From Pseudomonadota bacterium (lineage in GTDB: Bacteria; Pseudomonadota; Alphaproteobacteria; Puniceispirillales; Marisalimonadaceae), in assembly GCA_027625145.1 (NCBI GenBank), contig JAQBXK010000002.1:62001-126000 (forward strand): a stretch of DNA of 64,000 nt. Reading direction: 5' to 3'. The notes under the pieces are model-generated. The model was not told the origin of the DNA and did no database searches. It was given only the letters and a program-made list of their open reading frames with translations. The stretch's first letter is position 1. The number at the start of each line of letters is the position of its first letter. Position numbers and translations under genes: made by a program. Below are positions 34,977 to 51,029 of the stretch, piece by piece.

Positions 34977-36308
34977 TTAGTTTTTGGAAATATTATTAAT
35001 TTTATTGTTAAATAGACTTATCCCTCTAATAAGGTCAATAGCTCTTGATACTTGGTTGTCTTGTATTAATTTTTCAGTGACCGTTAATTTAATCTTAGGT
35101 TCTGGATTTTCATCTTTTGACTTTGTAGTTTTATTATCTAATGAGCCTTTTAGGTTCTCTTCGCGCCTATTTTTCTTCTTATCTTTATTAGCTTCAGTGA
35201 TACCTGCCTCAACTATAATATCAGGTTGTATGCCTTTTGCCTGAATTGATATTCCACTAGGCGTATAGTACCTTGCTGTTGTTAGTCTCATAGCTCCGTT
35301 ACCAGCAAGTGGAATGATTGACTGAACTGATCCTTTACCAAAACTTCTTGTTCCAATAATAATAGCTCTGGAATGATCTTTTAAAGCTCCGGCTACAATC
35401 TCACTTGCAGAAGCTGATCCACTATTAATTAACACTATCAGCGGTTTGCCGTTGATTATATCACCTTTTTTAGCAAATACTCTTGATGCATCATCATTTT
35501 TGCGTCCTTTAGTTGATACAATCTCTCCTTGATTAAGAAAAGCATCTGATACAGAAATTGATTGATTAAGAAGACCGCCTGGATTGTTTCTAAGATCTAA
35601 GATTAAACCTAGAAAGTTATCGCCTATTTCTTTTTTTATTTTTTCAACAGCAGTTTTTAATCCTTCTGTAGTAGTTTCTGAAAAAGTAGTTAGGCGAACA
35701 TATCCAACATTATTTATAATATTGTGTTTAACTGACTTAATCTTAATAACATCCCTTTTTATTTCTAGTTCAAATGGTTCTTCTTCATTACGAACGACTG
35801 TAATTTTAATTGAACTTCCTATAGGCCCTCTTAGTTGGGACACAGCTTCATTTATTGATAGGCCTCTTAATGATTCACCGTTTACTGCTATAATTAGGTC
35901 ACCAGATTGCATTCCAGCTAAAGCTGCCGGTGTATCATCGATAGGTGATATCACTTTAACAAATCCACCTTCCATAGTGATTTCAATTCCTAGGCCCCCA
36001 AACGTTCCTTTTGTTTTAACTTGCATATCATCATATGATTCTGCATTTAAATATGAAGAATGAGGGTCAAGCGATTGAAGCATGCCAGATATAGCTGATT
36101 CAATTAATTCTTTGTCAGTGACTTCTTCTACGTATTGTTCTTGAACCCTTTGAAAAACATCTCCAAAAAGGTTAAGTTGTTTATATGTTTCTTGGCGGTT
36201 TGATTGTGCATTAAGAATGTTATTTGGAAAAAATCCTAATATTATTAGAAATGAAGAAAATATAATTAAAAATATAAATGTTTTATTTTTAAATAAATTA
36301 TGAATCAT
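34977..36308 (-). CDS. ctpA: carboxyl-terminal processing peptidase CtpA (S41A)
   Basis: A 443-residue S41 protease acting in the periplasm, anchored or exported by the hydrophobic segment at 10-27. A PDZ domain spans about 95-175 (G-L-G-I-E-I and D-L-I-I-A-V-N-G). The catalytic dyad is Ser300 in S-A-S-A-S-E and Lys325 in F-G-K-G-S-V-Q, 25 residues apart as in Tsp. The C-terminal tail after about 365 is charged and low-complexity. It lies between gpmI and rppH. The EnvC-like peptidase gene often found between gpmI and ctpA in Alphaproteobacteria is absent here. Confidence 0.95.
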   Translation of the reverse strand: MIHNLFKNKTFIFLIIFSSFLIILGFFPNNILNAQSNRQETYKQLNLFGDVFQRVQEQYVEEVTDKELIESAISGMLQSLDPHSSYLNAESYDDMQVKTKGTFGGLGIEITMEGGFVKVISPIDDTPAALAGMQSGDLIIAVNGESLRGLSINEAVSQLRGPIGSSIKITVVRNEEEPFELEIKRDVIKIKSVKHNIINNVGYVRLTTFSETTTEGLKTAVEKIKKEIGDNFLGLILDLRNNPGGLLNQSISVSDAFLNQGEIVSTKGRKNDDASRVFAKKGDIINGKPLIVLINSGSASASEIVAGALKDHSRAIIIGTRSFGKGSVQSIIPLAGNGAMRLTTARYYTPSGISIQAKGIQPDIIVEAGITEANKDKKKNRREENLKGSLDNKTTKSKDENPEPKIKLTVTEKLIQDNQVSRAIDLIRGISLFNNKINNISKN

Positions 36309-36415: not shown

Positions 36416-37945
36416 TTAAAATAGCAATGATTTACCATTCATAGATACTGGCTTTTCTATCTTTAAAAGATCTAGAATAGTAGGCGCAATATCAGCTAAT
36501 TTACCATTGTTTAATTTTAAATTGTTATTTTTTGAAATTAAAATTAATGGAACTTTGTTACATGTATGGGCTGTGTGAGGTGTTTTGGTTTTCTCGTGTA
36601 TCATTACTTCACAATTTCCATGATCAGCAGTTAGTAACATTATGCCATTTGTTTGATCTAACGCTTTTTTTACATTACCTATTGCTTTGTCTATTGTTTC
36701 AACTGCAATAATAGCTGCATTAAGATTCCCAGTATGGCCTACCATATCTGGGTTTGCAAAATTGATTATAATTAAATCATAAATTTCAAGTTCAATAGCT
36801 TTAATTAATTCAGCTTCAACGTGATGAGCCGACATTTCTGGTTTTTGATCGTATGTTGATACTTTAGGAGAAGGTATCATTACTCTTGTTTCACCAGGAA
36901 AAACAGTTTCTTTACCACCATTAAAAAAAAATGTTACATGTGGATATTTTTCTGTTTCAGCTAATCTTAGCTGTTTTAGATTATTTTTAGATATAATTTC
37001 ACCCAACGTATCTTGAATTTTATTACTTGAAAAAATACTTTTCATATATGAAGAAAGTTTTTCAGAATATTCTGTCATGCCTAAAGAATTAGAAAAATAG
37101 GGAGTATTTGATCTTTTTTCAAACTCGTTAAAATCAGGATCTAGAAAAGAAGTTAAAAGCTCTCTAACTCTATCTGATCTGAAGTTAACCATGAGTAAAC
37201 TATCACCATTTTGAATACCAGAATAATCTCCTATAGCTGTAGGAGAAATAAATTCGTCTGTTTCACTGTTTTCATATGCTAATTTAATAGCTGAAGATAT
37301 ATTTTCTGACCTTCTGTCATGAGTACCATAGGTAATGAGATCAAAAGATTTTTTTATTCTATCCCACCTGTTATCTCTATCCATTGAAAAATATCTTCCA
37401 ATAAGGCTAACAATTTTTATTGACTTAGGTAAAGATTTTTCAAATTGTTTAATAATATCTCCAATTTGTAATGGAGAACTATCTCTTCCATCTGAGAAAA
37501 TATGGATTACTGTTTTAATGTTTTTTGCATCTAATAGTTTAGCAATAGAAATGATATGGTTCATATGAGAATGGACACCTCCATCACTGCATAATCCGAG
37601 TAAATGGACAGTGTTGTTTTGATTATGTATTTTAGTAAATTCATTAAAATTTTTATTTAATTTGATCTCATTATTTTTGAATGCTTGATTAATTCTTGGA
37701 AGAGTTTGCATTACAACTCTTCCTGAGCCTAAGTTCATATGTCCTACTTCAGAGTTTCCAACTTGACCAACTGGTAACCCTACATGTTCCCCGGATGCTT
37801 CAAGTGTAGAAAAAGGATATAATTTTGATAGGTTATCAACATTTGGTGTTTTTGCTTGAGCCACAGCATTATAATTTATATTTTTGTTTATTCCCCATCC
37901 ATCCATTATACACAATATTATTGGGGCTTTTTTCTTATTTTTCAT
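36416..37945 (-). CDS. gpmI: 2,3-bisphosphoglycerate-independent phosphoglycerate mutase
   Basis: A 509-residue Mn2+-dependent glycolytic enzyme interconverting 3- and 2-phosphoglycerate. The alkaline-phosphatase-like domain begins with C-I-M-D-G-W-G (Asp15) and the catalytic serine is Ser65 in V-G-N-S-E-V-G-H. The phosphotransferase insertion has S-D-G-G-V-H-S-H near 122 and S-D-G-R-D. Late metal ligands are in T-A-D-H-G-N and H-T-A-H-T. Length is normal. It lies in the order rlmH-gpmI-ctpA, and the gap to ctpA is about 107 bases. Confidence 0.96.
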   Translation of the reverse strand: MKNKKKAPIILCIMDGWGINKNINYNAVAQAKTPNVDNLSKLYPFSTLEASGEHVGLPVGQVGNSEVGHMNLGSGRVVMQTLPRINQAFKNNEIKLNKNFNEFTKIHNQNNTVHLLGLCSDGGVHSHMNHIISIAKLLDAKNIKTVIHIFSDGRDSSPLQIGDIIKQFEKSLPKSIKIVSLIGRYFSMDRDNRWDRIKKSFDLITYGTHDRRSENISSAIKLAYENSETDEFISPTAIGDYSGIQNGDSLLMVNFRSDRVRELLTSFLDPDFNEFEKRSNTPYFSNSLGMTEYSEKLSSYMKSIFSSNKIQDTLGEIISKNNLKQLRLAETEKYPHVTFFFNGGKETVFPGETRVMIPSPKVSTYDQKPEMSAHHVEAELIKAIELEIYDLIIINFANPDMVGHTGNLNAAIIAVETIDKAIGNVKKALDQTNGIMLLTADHGNCEVMIHEKTKTPHTAHTCNKVPLILISKNNNLKLNNGKLADIAPTILDLLKIEKPVSMNGKSLLF

Positions 37946-37971: not shown

Positions 37972-38022
37972 TTATTTATGATAAGGATGACCTCTTAAAA
38001 TAGTTTCAACTCTATAAATTTG
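37972..38022 (-). pseudogene. rlmH: detached C-terminal codons of rlmH
   Basis: Directly after the rlmH stop codon (38023-38025) the same frame continues for 16 codons, Q-I-Y-R-V-E-T-I-L-R-G-H-P-Y-H-K, and ends at TAA 37972-37974. This is the conserved RlmH C-terminus (EQ-x-YRA...G-x-PYHR). The stop replaces an expected Glu codon; a single G-to-T change in GAA would produce it. Whether these codons are ever translated is unknown. Confidence 0.8.
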
Positions 38023-38421
38023 TTAAGCGAGCATTATCTTAACCATTTGGTGAGGCCATGTTTGACGTCCAAAAGCAATCATTTTATCAGCAGTTTTTTT
38101 TATTTGAACGCCATTTCCGTATGGACCTCCAATTGCAAAATTTATAGCTGATATACTACTTTCTTTCCAATCCAATACTAATTTAGCGAGCTCCTTACTT
38201 GATAAATTTTCTCCTTGTTCATCAAGTAATATTAATTTAGCATTTAACGGTGTTGATTTTATTAATTTAGTGCCTTCTTCTATTATTTTTAATTTAACGT
38301 TATTTGTTTTTGCTTCATATTGGTTTAATTCAACATTATTTAATCTTTTTAAATATTTTTGAGTAATTTTTTCTTCATCAGATTTTGAAGATTTGCCTAT
38401 ATATGAAATAATGTATTTCAT
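38023..38421 (-). CDS. rlmH: 23S rRNA (pseudouridine1915-N3)-methyltransferase RlmH, truncated by an in-frame stop
   Basis: RlmH is a small SPOUT methyltransferase that methylates pseudouridine 1915 in helix 69 of 23S rRNA. The 132 residues contain the family's L-L-D-E-Q-G near residue 67, the SAM-binding F-A-I-G-G-P-Y-G near 96 and L-P-H-like W-P-H-Q-M near 122. It ends at M-L-A, where relatives continue with E-Q-x-Y-R-A and a final P-Y-H-R needed for the trefoil-knot active site. That tail follows in frame after the TAA. So this is a nonsense variant, a readthrough case or a sequence error. It is three bases downstream of rsfS, with gpmI next. Confidence 0.88.
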   Translation of the reverse strand: MKYIISYIGKSSKSDEEKITQKYLKRLNNVELNQYEAKTNNVKLKIIEEGTKLIKSTPLNAKLILLDEQGENLSSKELAKLVLDWKESSISAINFAIGGPYGNGVQIKKTADKMIAFGRQTWPHQMVKIMLA

Positions 38422-38424
38422 TAT

Positions 38425-38799
38425 TTATTTTTCATTTGAAGCAATAAGCTCATCTTTTTCATTCTTAAGCCACATTTTTTCTAGGCTATAAAAATCTCTT
38501 ACCTCAGGGCGGAATATATGGATTAAAATATCACTTGCATCAATCAGAACCCAATCGCCATTTGACATACCCTCAGGAGACGGAACACGAATACCAATAT
38601 CTTTAAATTTTTTTATTAAATTATTTCCCATTGAGGCAACTTGTCTTGTTGAATTTCCACTGGCAACTATCATAAAATCGGCAATACTACTTCTTCCAAT
38701 AAGATTGATACTTATAACATCAATCGCTTTATCGTCTTCCAAAGATTCTAAAGCTAATTTTAATAACTGTTTAGAAGAATTGGATTTATTGTTTTTCAT
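38425..38799 (-). CDS. rsfS: ribosome silencing factor RsfS
   Basis: A 124-residue RsfS/Iojap-family protein that binds ribosomal protein L14 and blocks subunit joining during slow growth. Family features are D-F-M-I-V-A-S-G-N-S-T-R-Q-V near residue 40, G-D-W-V-L-I-D near 82 and a following I-H-I-F-R-P-E-V-R-D-F-Y. It lies between nadD (six bases upstream) and rlmH (three bases downstream), the standard arrangement. Confidence 0.95.
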   Translation of the reverse strand: MKNNKSNSSKQLLKLALESLEDDKAIDVISINLIGRSSIADFMIVASGNSTRQVASMGNNLIKKFKDIGIRVPSPEGMSNGDWVLIDASDILIHIFRPEVRDFYSLEKMWLKNEKDELIASNEK

Positions 38800-38805
38800 G
38801 TTTTT

Positions 38806-39465
38806 TTAACCTTTTTGATTTTTAGACTTTAAATATCTTATTTCTGTAGATGAAATAGACACTAATTTTTTTTTGATAAAAACCCAAGAAGGATTTTTAT
38901 TCAAATATAGTAGTTTGCTTTTAGATGGTTTTATTTTTTTTCCAAGCAAGAATGTTTCTTTACTATTCATTACAGAATAAGAATAACCGGGTCTCTCAAT
39001 TACTGCAACAGGCATTTTTTTTGAAATTTGTGATGGTTTAATCCATTTGCCAAAACTTTTTAGTATATCACTTCCCATTAACCAAATAAATTTTACTTTT
39101 GTTGACTTTTTTGTTAAAAAATTAACTGTCTCATAAGAAATAAAAAGATTATTTTTTTTTTCTAAATCTATTACTTTTATGAAGTTATTTTTTTTTGTTA
39201 AAGATCTTGCTTGATTTAATCTTTTACTAAAATCTTCCATATCTATGCTGAGTTTAAGCCTGTTTTGAGGAGCAACAAGCCACCAAACTTCATCCAATCT
39301 GAGTGTCCTTTTAGCTATTTCACTAATATGTACATGGCCTAAATGAGCAGGGTTAAAAGATCCGCCTAATATTCCAATTTTTCTTTTTCTTGAGTAAGAA
39401 AAGCATGTTGCTATATTATTTTTAAAATCTTTAGTTTCAATATGATTTTCACCGTTGTTAATCAC
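38806..39465 (-). CDS. nadD: nicotinate-nucleotide adenylyltransferase NadD
   Basis: A 219-residue nucleotidyltransferase that makes nicotinate adenine dinucleotide in NAD synthesis. The G-G-S-F-N-P-A-H-L-G-H motif at 34-44 contains the HxGH signature (His41, His44), and I-S-S-T-E-I-R near residue 207 is the second nucleotide-binding motif. The N-terminal 25 residues before the core are longer than usual and may be a start-site artefact. Its start overlaps the end of proA by eight bases, so it is probably coupled to it. Confidence 0.93.
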   Translation of the reverse strand: MINNGENHIETKDFKNNIATCFSYSRKRKIGILGGSFNPAHLGHVHISEIAKRTLRLDEVWWLVAPQNRLKLSIDMEDFSKRLNQARSLTKKNNFIKVIDLEKKNNLFISYETVNFLTKKSTKVKFIWLMGSDILKSFGKWIKPSQISKKMPVAVIERPGYSYSVMNSKETFLLGKKIKPSKSKLLYLNKNPSWVFIKKKLVSISSTEIRYLKSKNQKG

Positions 39466-47379: not shown

Positions 47380-48405
47380 TTATTTAGCTGTTTCAAAAAC
47401 TAGGTCAACTAGAGCTTGAGCATCAAATTTATCTTTATTTGCTGCCACCCATGCATCCCATACCGGCTTACCAGCTGCTTTTCTAAATTCTGCAAGTGTC
47501 TTTTTATCATATTTTACTTCTATCAATTTAGATCTAAACATTGGCAAGTTTTTGTCATCAGCTTTTTTATATGCAACTTTAACTGATGCAAGAGCTTCTG
47601 GTCTTAGTTTTGCAAGCAAGTCTTGGTATTGAGTAGGCAATTTATCATATGAAGTTTTATTAATAACATATGGACAATCAGATGTACCTGGAGACATATT
47701 AGAAGTGAACCAATCAGCTACCTCGTGAATTTTGTATGACACATGTGCATATGTGTATGGAAAAGAAACAGCGTCTACAGCCCCTCTAGAAATTAATGTA
47801 TAAACTTCTGAGGCTGGAACAGTTTGGCGAGTAGCACCAAGGATTTCCATAGCAGAGCCAACTCCACCACCTGCACGAACTCTCATACCTTTAAAATCAG
47901 ATAAACTAGTTGGAGGCTTGCCTTTACCTAAAAATTCATATTGTGGAAGGTTTGATGTCATATATAACATTGCATTCCATTTAGCTAGCTGACCTTTTAC
48001 AATTGGGTGGTCATATACGGCATGTCTGATTTTAGCGTCTTTGTCAAAATCACCCATTGGAAGAAATGGTAAAGTTAACACCATTAATCCTGGGTTTTTA
48101 CCAGGGTGGTAAAAATTACAAAAAGCAGCCATTTCAAAGGAATTAGCTTTTAATCCATCCAAATTTTCTTTTGCTTTAGAAAGTTGAGCTCCATAAAAAA
48201 TTTTTAATTTAAATTTTCCATCAGTTTCTTCGCTTAGTCTTTGAGCCAAGGTTTCAGCACCTTCAGTAAAGGCTCTTCTTTTTCCCCAAAAACTAAATTT
48301 CCAGAAAACAGCCGGACCGTCTACTTTTGCAAGCACTAAATTTGCGTACACGTTAGAAATTAGAACCATTAAACAAACGGCCATAATTCTTTTAAAACTT
48401 AACAT
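47380..48405 (-). CDS. TRAP transporter substrate-binding protein (DctP)
   Basis: A 341-residue periplasmic binding protein. The signal peptide ends near V-L-A (residue 26). The ligand-carboxylate-binding arginine is expected in K-G-M-R-V-R-A-G-G-G near 170, preceded by an F-L-G-K-G-K-P-P segment. The ATG has a strong GGGAGGAT site. It is the first gene of the first TRAP operon, and its promoter region faces the Ldh2 pseudogene. Substrate unknown; by family, an organic acid. Confidence 0.93.
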   Translation of the reverse strand: MLSFKRIMAVCLMVLISNVYANLVLAKVDGPAVFWKFSFWGKRRAFTEGAETLAQRLSEETDGKFKLKIFYGAQLSKAKENLDGLKANSFEMAAFCNFYHPGKNPGLMVLTLPFLPMGDFDKDAKIRHAVYDHPIVKGQLAKWNAMLYMTSNLPQYEFLGKGKPPTSLSDFKGMRVRAGGGVGSAMEILGATRQTVPASEVYTLISRGAVDAVSFPYTYAHVSYKIHEVADWFTSNMSPGTSDCPYVINKTSYDKLPTQYQDLLAKLRPEALASVKVAYKKADDKNLPMFRSKLIEVKYDKKTLAEFRKAAGKPVWDAWVAANKDKFDAQALVDLVFETAK

Positions 48406-49712: not shown

Positions 49713-51029
49713 TTAAAATATTTTTAGAAGAAATAAAGTGATGCTTGGAAAAGAAAATAATAGAATAACGCGTAAAATATCACTTATAAGAAAGGGAAAC
49801 ACTCCTTTAAATGTTTCAGATATTTTGACATCACCCGCCATCTTATTAATTATAAAAACATTTAATCCAACTGGTGGAGTTATTAATCCAACTTCAACAA
49901 CAATTAAGGTTAATATTCCAAACCAAATAGCTGTTTCTTCAGGTGTCATTCCAAAATCTAAAGTCATAATCAAAGGAAAAAAAACTGGGATGGTTAACAA
50001 TATCATTGCAAGACTGTCCATTAGACAACCAAGGAACAGATAAAGAATTAGAATACATGCGACTATTAATAGAGGGGATAAATTATTACTCATAGCAATT
50101 CTTCCAAGTTCGTTTGGTAATTGAGTTAACGCTATAAATGAATTAAAAAATTCCGCTCCTAGAAGAACCAAGAAAATCATAGCTGTTGTTACAGCTGTAC
50201 TTTCGATTACATCGATTAAGTCTTTAAATTTAAAATTGTTATTTAAGAATGCGAGTAAACCTGTTCCTATTGCTCCTATTGCACCCCCTTCAGTTGGAGT
50301 AAACCAACCAAGATAAATTCCTCCAATCATAGTGACGAAAATTAGAATAATTTGCCATATATTTTTAAAAAGTATTAAACGTTCTTTCCAATTAATCCTT
50401 GCTCTTGTTGGTCCAGAATCCTTAACAAATCTAACATATATCGCTATAGTTAATATGTAACCAAGTGCTGCTAAAATACCTGGTATAAAAGCAGCTAAAA
50501 ACATTTTAGCTATATTTTGCTCAGTTAAAATTGAGTAGATTATTAAAATAACTGAAGGAGGTATTAATATACCTAATGTGCCTCCGGCCGCCAATGTTCC
50601 AGTACTTAACGCTCCTGAATAACCAAGTTTTCTAAGTTCAGGAAGAGCAACTTTCCCCATGGTTGCAGCCGTTGCTAAAGATGACCCGCATATTGCTCCA
50701 AAACCTGCACATGCTCCAATTGCGGCCATTGCTACCCCGCCTTTTCTATGACCGAGACATGCACCAGTAAATTTAAATAATGCTTCACTCATACCGGCTT
50801 TCCCAGCAAAATTACCCATAAGTAAAAAAAGAGGTATTACAGACAAAGAATAACTTGAAAAAAGGTGCCAAGCGCTAGTCTTAACTTGAGAAAGTATTGG
50901 AAGCCATCCCGCTATCAATATTGTTCCAGAGCAGCCAACAATTAGCATAGATAGTCCTATTGGAATTCTAAATGCCAATAATGAAAAAAGAATTGGAAAG
51001 GCTATTATACCCAGCGTAAAGCGATCCAT
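49713..51029 (-). CDS. TRAP transporter large permease subunit (DctM), second system
   Basis: A 438-residue large permease with about 12 helices. Motifs: G-S-S-L-A-T-A-A near 115, A-A-G-G-T-L-G-I-L-I-P-P-S near 146, G-W-F-T-P-T-E-G-G-A near 240, and L-I-T-P-P-V-G-L-N near 392. It has AGGAAGAG before the ATG and starts three bases after the small-subunit stop. The operon is divergent from the ring-cleavage genes at 52848, so an aromatic or ring-derived acid is a reasonable guess for the substrate, but this is inference from position. Confidence 0.95.
   Translation of the reverse strand: MDRFTLGIIAFPILFSLLAFRIPIGLSMLIVGCSGTILIAGWLPILSQVKTSAWHLFSSYSLSVIPLFLLMGNFAGKAGMSEALFKFTGACLGHRKGGVAMAAIGACAGFGAICGSSLATAATMGKVALPELRKLGYSGALSTGTLAAGGTLGILIPPSVILIIYSILTEQNIAKMFLAAFIPGILAALGYILTIAIYVRFVKDSGPTRARINWKERLILFKNIWQIILIFVTMIGGIYLGWFTPTEGGAIGAIGTGLLAFLNNNFKFKDLIDVIESTAVTTAMIFLVLLGAEFFNSFIALTQLPNELGRIAMSNNLSPLLIVACILILYLFLGCLMDSLAMILLTIPVFFPLIMTLDFGMTPEETAIWFGILTLIVVEVGLITPPVGLNVFIINKMAGDVKISETFKGVFPFLISDILRVILLFSFPSITLFLLKIF

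Follow-up and report, generated by a model that had tools for sequence, protein, structure and literature searches.

A private in-frame stop at the catalytic glutamate codon of rlmH in an alphaproteobacterial draft genome

The gene for the 23S rRNA pseudouridine-1915 N3-methyltransferase RlmH is interrupted by one in-frame TAA in the 64,000-nucleotide stretch of DNA analyzed here (the window). The stop falls on the codon for the catalytic Glu and, among the genomes compared, occurs in this one only. A real, recent, strain-level null allele is slightly favored over a sequence error as its explanation, with a probability that we place a little above even. The features concerned, all on the minus strand, are the following:

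37972..38421, minus strand: rlmH, interrupted; the ancestral frame as a whole comprises 149 codons and a stop (full-length PF02590 match with one internal TAA)
38023..38421, minus strand: open portion of rlmH, the 132 aa that would be translated (list of open reading frames)
38023..38025, minus strand: premature TAA at codon 133, Glu in relatives (translation and comparison with relatives)
37975..38022, minus strand: conserved C-terminal tail of rlmH, QIYRVETILRGHPYHK, 16 codons, untranslated; the original TAA comes next, at 37972-37974 (translation and comparison)

Translation of the frame yields 132 sense codons, a TAA, the 16-codon tail, and a second TAA. With the first stop read through, the frame matches positions 1-154 of 154 of PF02590 (E = 1.2e-37, one TAA inside), the profile of the SPOUT methyltransferase family RlmH (YbeA/OrfX), from which the gene differs in carrying an in-frame TAA at the catalytic Glu codon (E138 in E. 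coli numbering). The NCBIfam RlmH models match the first 132 aa, and the tail of the intact relative's RlmH matches solved RlmH proteins, e.g., 1to0 and 4fak. An earlier note on this DNA had described a TAA at a conserved Glu, a single base change away from GAA, with a conserved 16-codon tail continuing in frame to a second TAA; translation and alignment with relatives bear out each of these points, including the one-base route, as the nearest relative (G001) has GAA at that codon. A PF02590 profile search recovered rlmH as a single copy in the 2.27-Mb, 83-contig draft genome, and a second copy was rejected because none exists elsewhere in it. When the gene was compared with that of G001, no further stop or indel was found besides the TAA at 38023-38025. 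The gene should be annotated here as interrupted.

G001 is labeled alpha proteobacterium SCGC AAA536-G10 (FRAM18_bin016), is listed by NCBI as unclassified within Alphaproteobacteria, and shares 95.9% nucleotide identity with the window genome over 20 kb without a gap; the family also includes a contig named as SAR116 cluster. A second genome of the same species was sought and none was found, G001 being the nearest and lacking the stop. Its rlmH frame is open, and apart from the stop, the two proteins are 94% identical. The 20 base differences between the genes comprise the stop, eight amino-acid-changing substitutions, and 11 silent ones. In the tail, a single residue differs (V138 for I), and agreement at 15 of 16 positions is more than chance can account for. 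An error-prone region was rejected, given the gapless 20-kb alignment and an ordinary substitution spectrum.

Across the order, rlmH was found in 117 of 136 genomes, and the window genome is the only one with an in-frame stop. Besides G001, all further relatives compared (21/21) have Glu at the position of codon 133. The earlier note had proposed such a comparison and had raised an error confined to this assembly as the alternative; a private stop among relatives that all have Glu also fits that alternative. As rlmH is present in each of the 43 genomes that are at least 90% complete, its loss is not usual in the order. Of the genomes with no rlmH match, nine (eight from the family and one from the order) were checked. 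None of them has rsfS or gpmI either, a sign of contigs missing from drafts rather than of loss of rlmH. Lineage-wide loss was thus rejected, since these nine drafts miss the whole rsfS-rlmH-gpmI block. In two other genomes, G083 (C34:29196-29655) and G104 (C7:133374-133821), rlmH seems to be split in two within a single contig, the pieces abutting or overlapping as they would after a frameshift, and in G130 the pieces are on two contigs.

The gene order nadD-rsfS-rlmH-gpmI is common to the window and the nearest relative. Upstream of rlmH, rsfS (38425-38799) and nadD (38806-39465) are open and match their own families, as does gpmI downstream (36416-37945); the description of rsfS and gpmI as intact thus holds and extends to nadD. 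A search of the window for RNA elements gave no Rfam hit that reached the gathering threshold. About 10 kb from rlmH lies an eroded pseudogene of the Ldh_2 family (malate/L-lactate dehydrogenase, PF02615; 48663-49464, plus strand), which consists of four open fragments in profile order with stops and frame changes between them and is flanked by TRAP transporter genes for DctP (47380-48405) and DctM (49713-51029). Inactive genes therefore do occur in this genome.

The translated product lacks both the catalytic Glu, codon 133 corresponding to E138 of E. coli RlmH, and the Y-H-R/K tail. In E. coli RlmH, each active site is completed by the C-terminal tail of the partner subunit, and no activity is detectable for the variants E138A, E138Q, Y152F, H153F, and R154A (PMC5430550). 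By these mutant data, the truncated 132-residue RlmH is very probably inactive in this organism as well, as the earlier note had supposed.

The TAA may belong to a living population or only to the consensus. A base-call or assembly error, with an intact rlmH in the living cells, is a serious contender that we rate somewhat short of even. It accords with a stop private to one 83-contig draft assembly, with a single substitution and no other lesion in rlmH, and with retention of the gene in all near-complete relatives. To estimate the rate of broken genes, about 95 orthologous genes from stretches of genome were compared in both directions with the sister genome, G001. The window genome showed one mid-gene stop (rlmH) and one protease that is six residues shorter at its end, and G001 likewise showed one mid-gene stop. 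The stop in G001, which is in frame, interrupts a 169-aa gene (L087 12928-13434) at its codon 49; the window's genome has this gene intact (L099 14654-15163). The shorter protease is of the S41 carboxy-terminal type (34977-36308, minus strand), its frame closing six codons before that of the sister genome owing to a TCA/TAA difference, which is ordinary end variation. With one isolated stop in each genome, lone nonsense changes form a background in these drafts at roughly 1 in 95 genes, a rate that fits errors and real alleles alike. Against an error stand the lack of frameshifts in the compared stretches and a mild excess of amino-acid changes in rlmH, which an error would not predict. On the window lineage, rlmH has five such changes vs 1.7 expected from 17 neighboring genes (p 0.027), some of them at sites that 19 to 21 of the 21 relatives conserve. 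The excess vanishes when the rate of gpmI, which evolves nearly as fast, is used instead (p 0.22); for non-synonymous changes, the excess falls short of significance (p 0.07). The balance leans slightly toward a real, recent null allele, without settling the matter.

Two further readings would leave rlmH with a function. Full-length RlmH made by functional read-through, or by suppression of the TAA, would account for a tail that is still conserved, and one-base mispairing at UAA could insert Gln, Lys, Tyr, Glu, Ser, or Leu. Conservation of the tail is, however, expected anyway after a recent mutation; UAA is also the normal terminator of rlmH, and the stop is found in no relative, whether among the 117 order genomes with rlmH or the 21 that were compared and have Glu. 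Because neither E138Q nor E138A is active in E. coli (PMC5430550), read-through would likely restore activity only where Glu is inserted. No anticodon reading UAA (ochre suppressor) was found among 30 tRNA loci, a list that is incomplete, with several expected tRNAs missing from it. The earlier note had called the product probably inactive unless the stop is read through; that probable inactivity stands, and rescue by read-through is very improbable. That the shortened RlmH has retained or acquired some other function for which the tail is unnecessary is the least probable reading of all, with hardly any chance of being correct. Codons 1 to 132 do form an open, well-conserved frame, but no relative has such a short form ahead of the remaining frame and the neighborhood suggests no new partner. 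We see no evidence of programmed read-through, recoding, or lineage-wide RlmH loss.

The preferred reading, a real null allele, would require a single G-to-T change on the coding strand that converted the catalytic Glu codon to TAA in this genome. The product would end after residue 132, without the catalytic Glu, the part of the last helix that follows it, and the Y-H-K tail by which the partner subunit's active site would be completed, and the 132-residue RlmH should be unable to methylate pseudouridine 1915 of 23S rRNA. The change would be recent and private to the strain or assembly, with the gene carried without further decay. We infer that the stop base is real. Such an allele would be tolerated because model bacteria grow without RlmH, as judged from E. 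coli deletion mutants.

The gene resembles ordinary strain-level nonsense alleles, or young bacterial pseudogenes, in having a single substitution, present in one genome only, with the rest of the gene conserved; no feature was found that distinguishes it from them. A literature search for rlmH with premature stops returned no such case in titles or abstracts. Whether the stop is a sequence error or a private nonsense change in an rRNA-modification gene that cells can do without, it is ordinary and has little significance beyond annotation. It is a tentative and rather doubtful proposition that a free-living marine alphaproteobacterium has truly lost RlmH and manages without the m3-pseudouridine 1915 beside the decoding center, as one of very few such cases in the order. 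If the stop is real, it would give a free-living bacterium a natural null allele of an rRNA-modification gene that is almost universal, which agrees with the known dispensability of RlmH.
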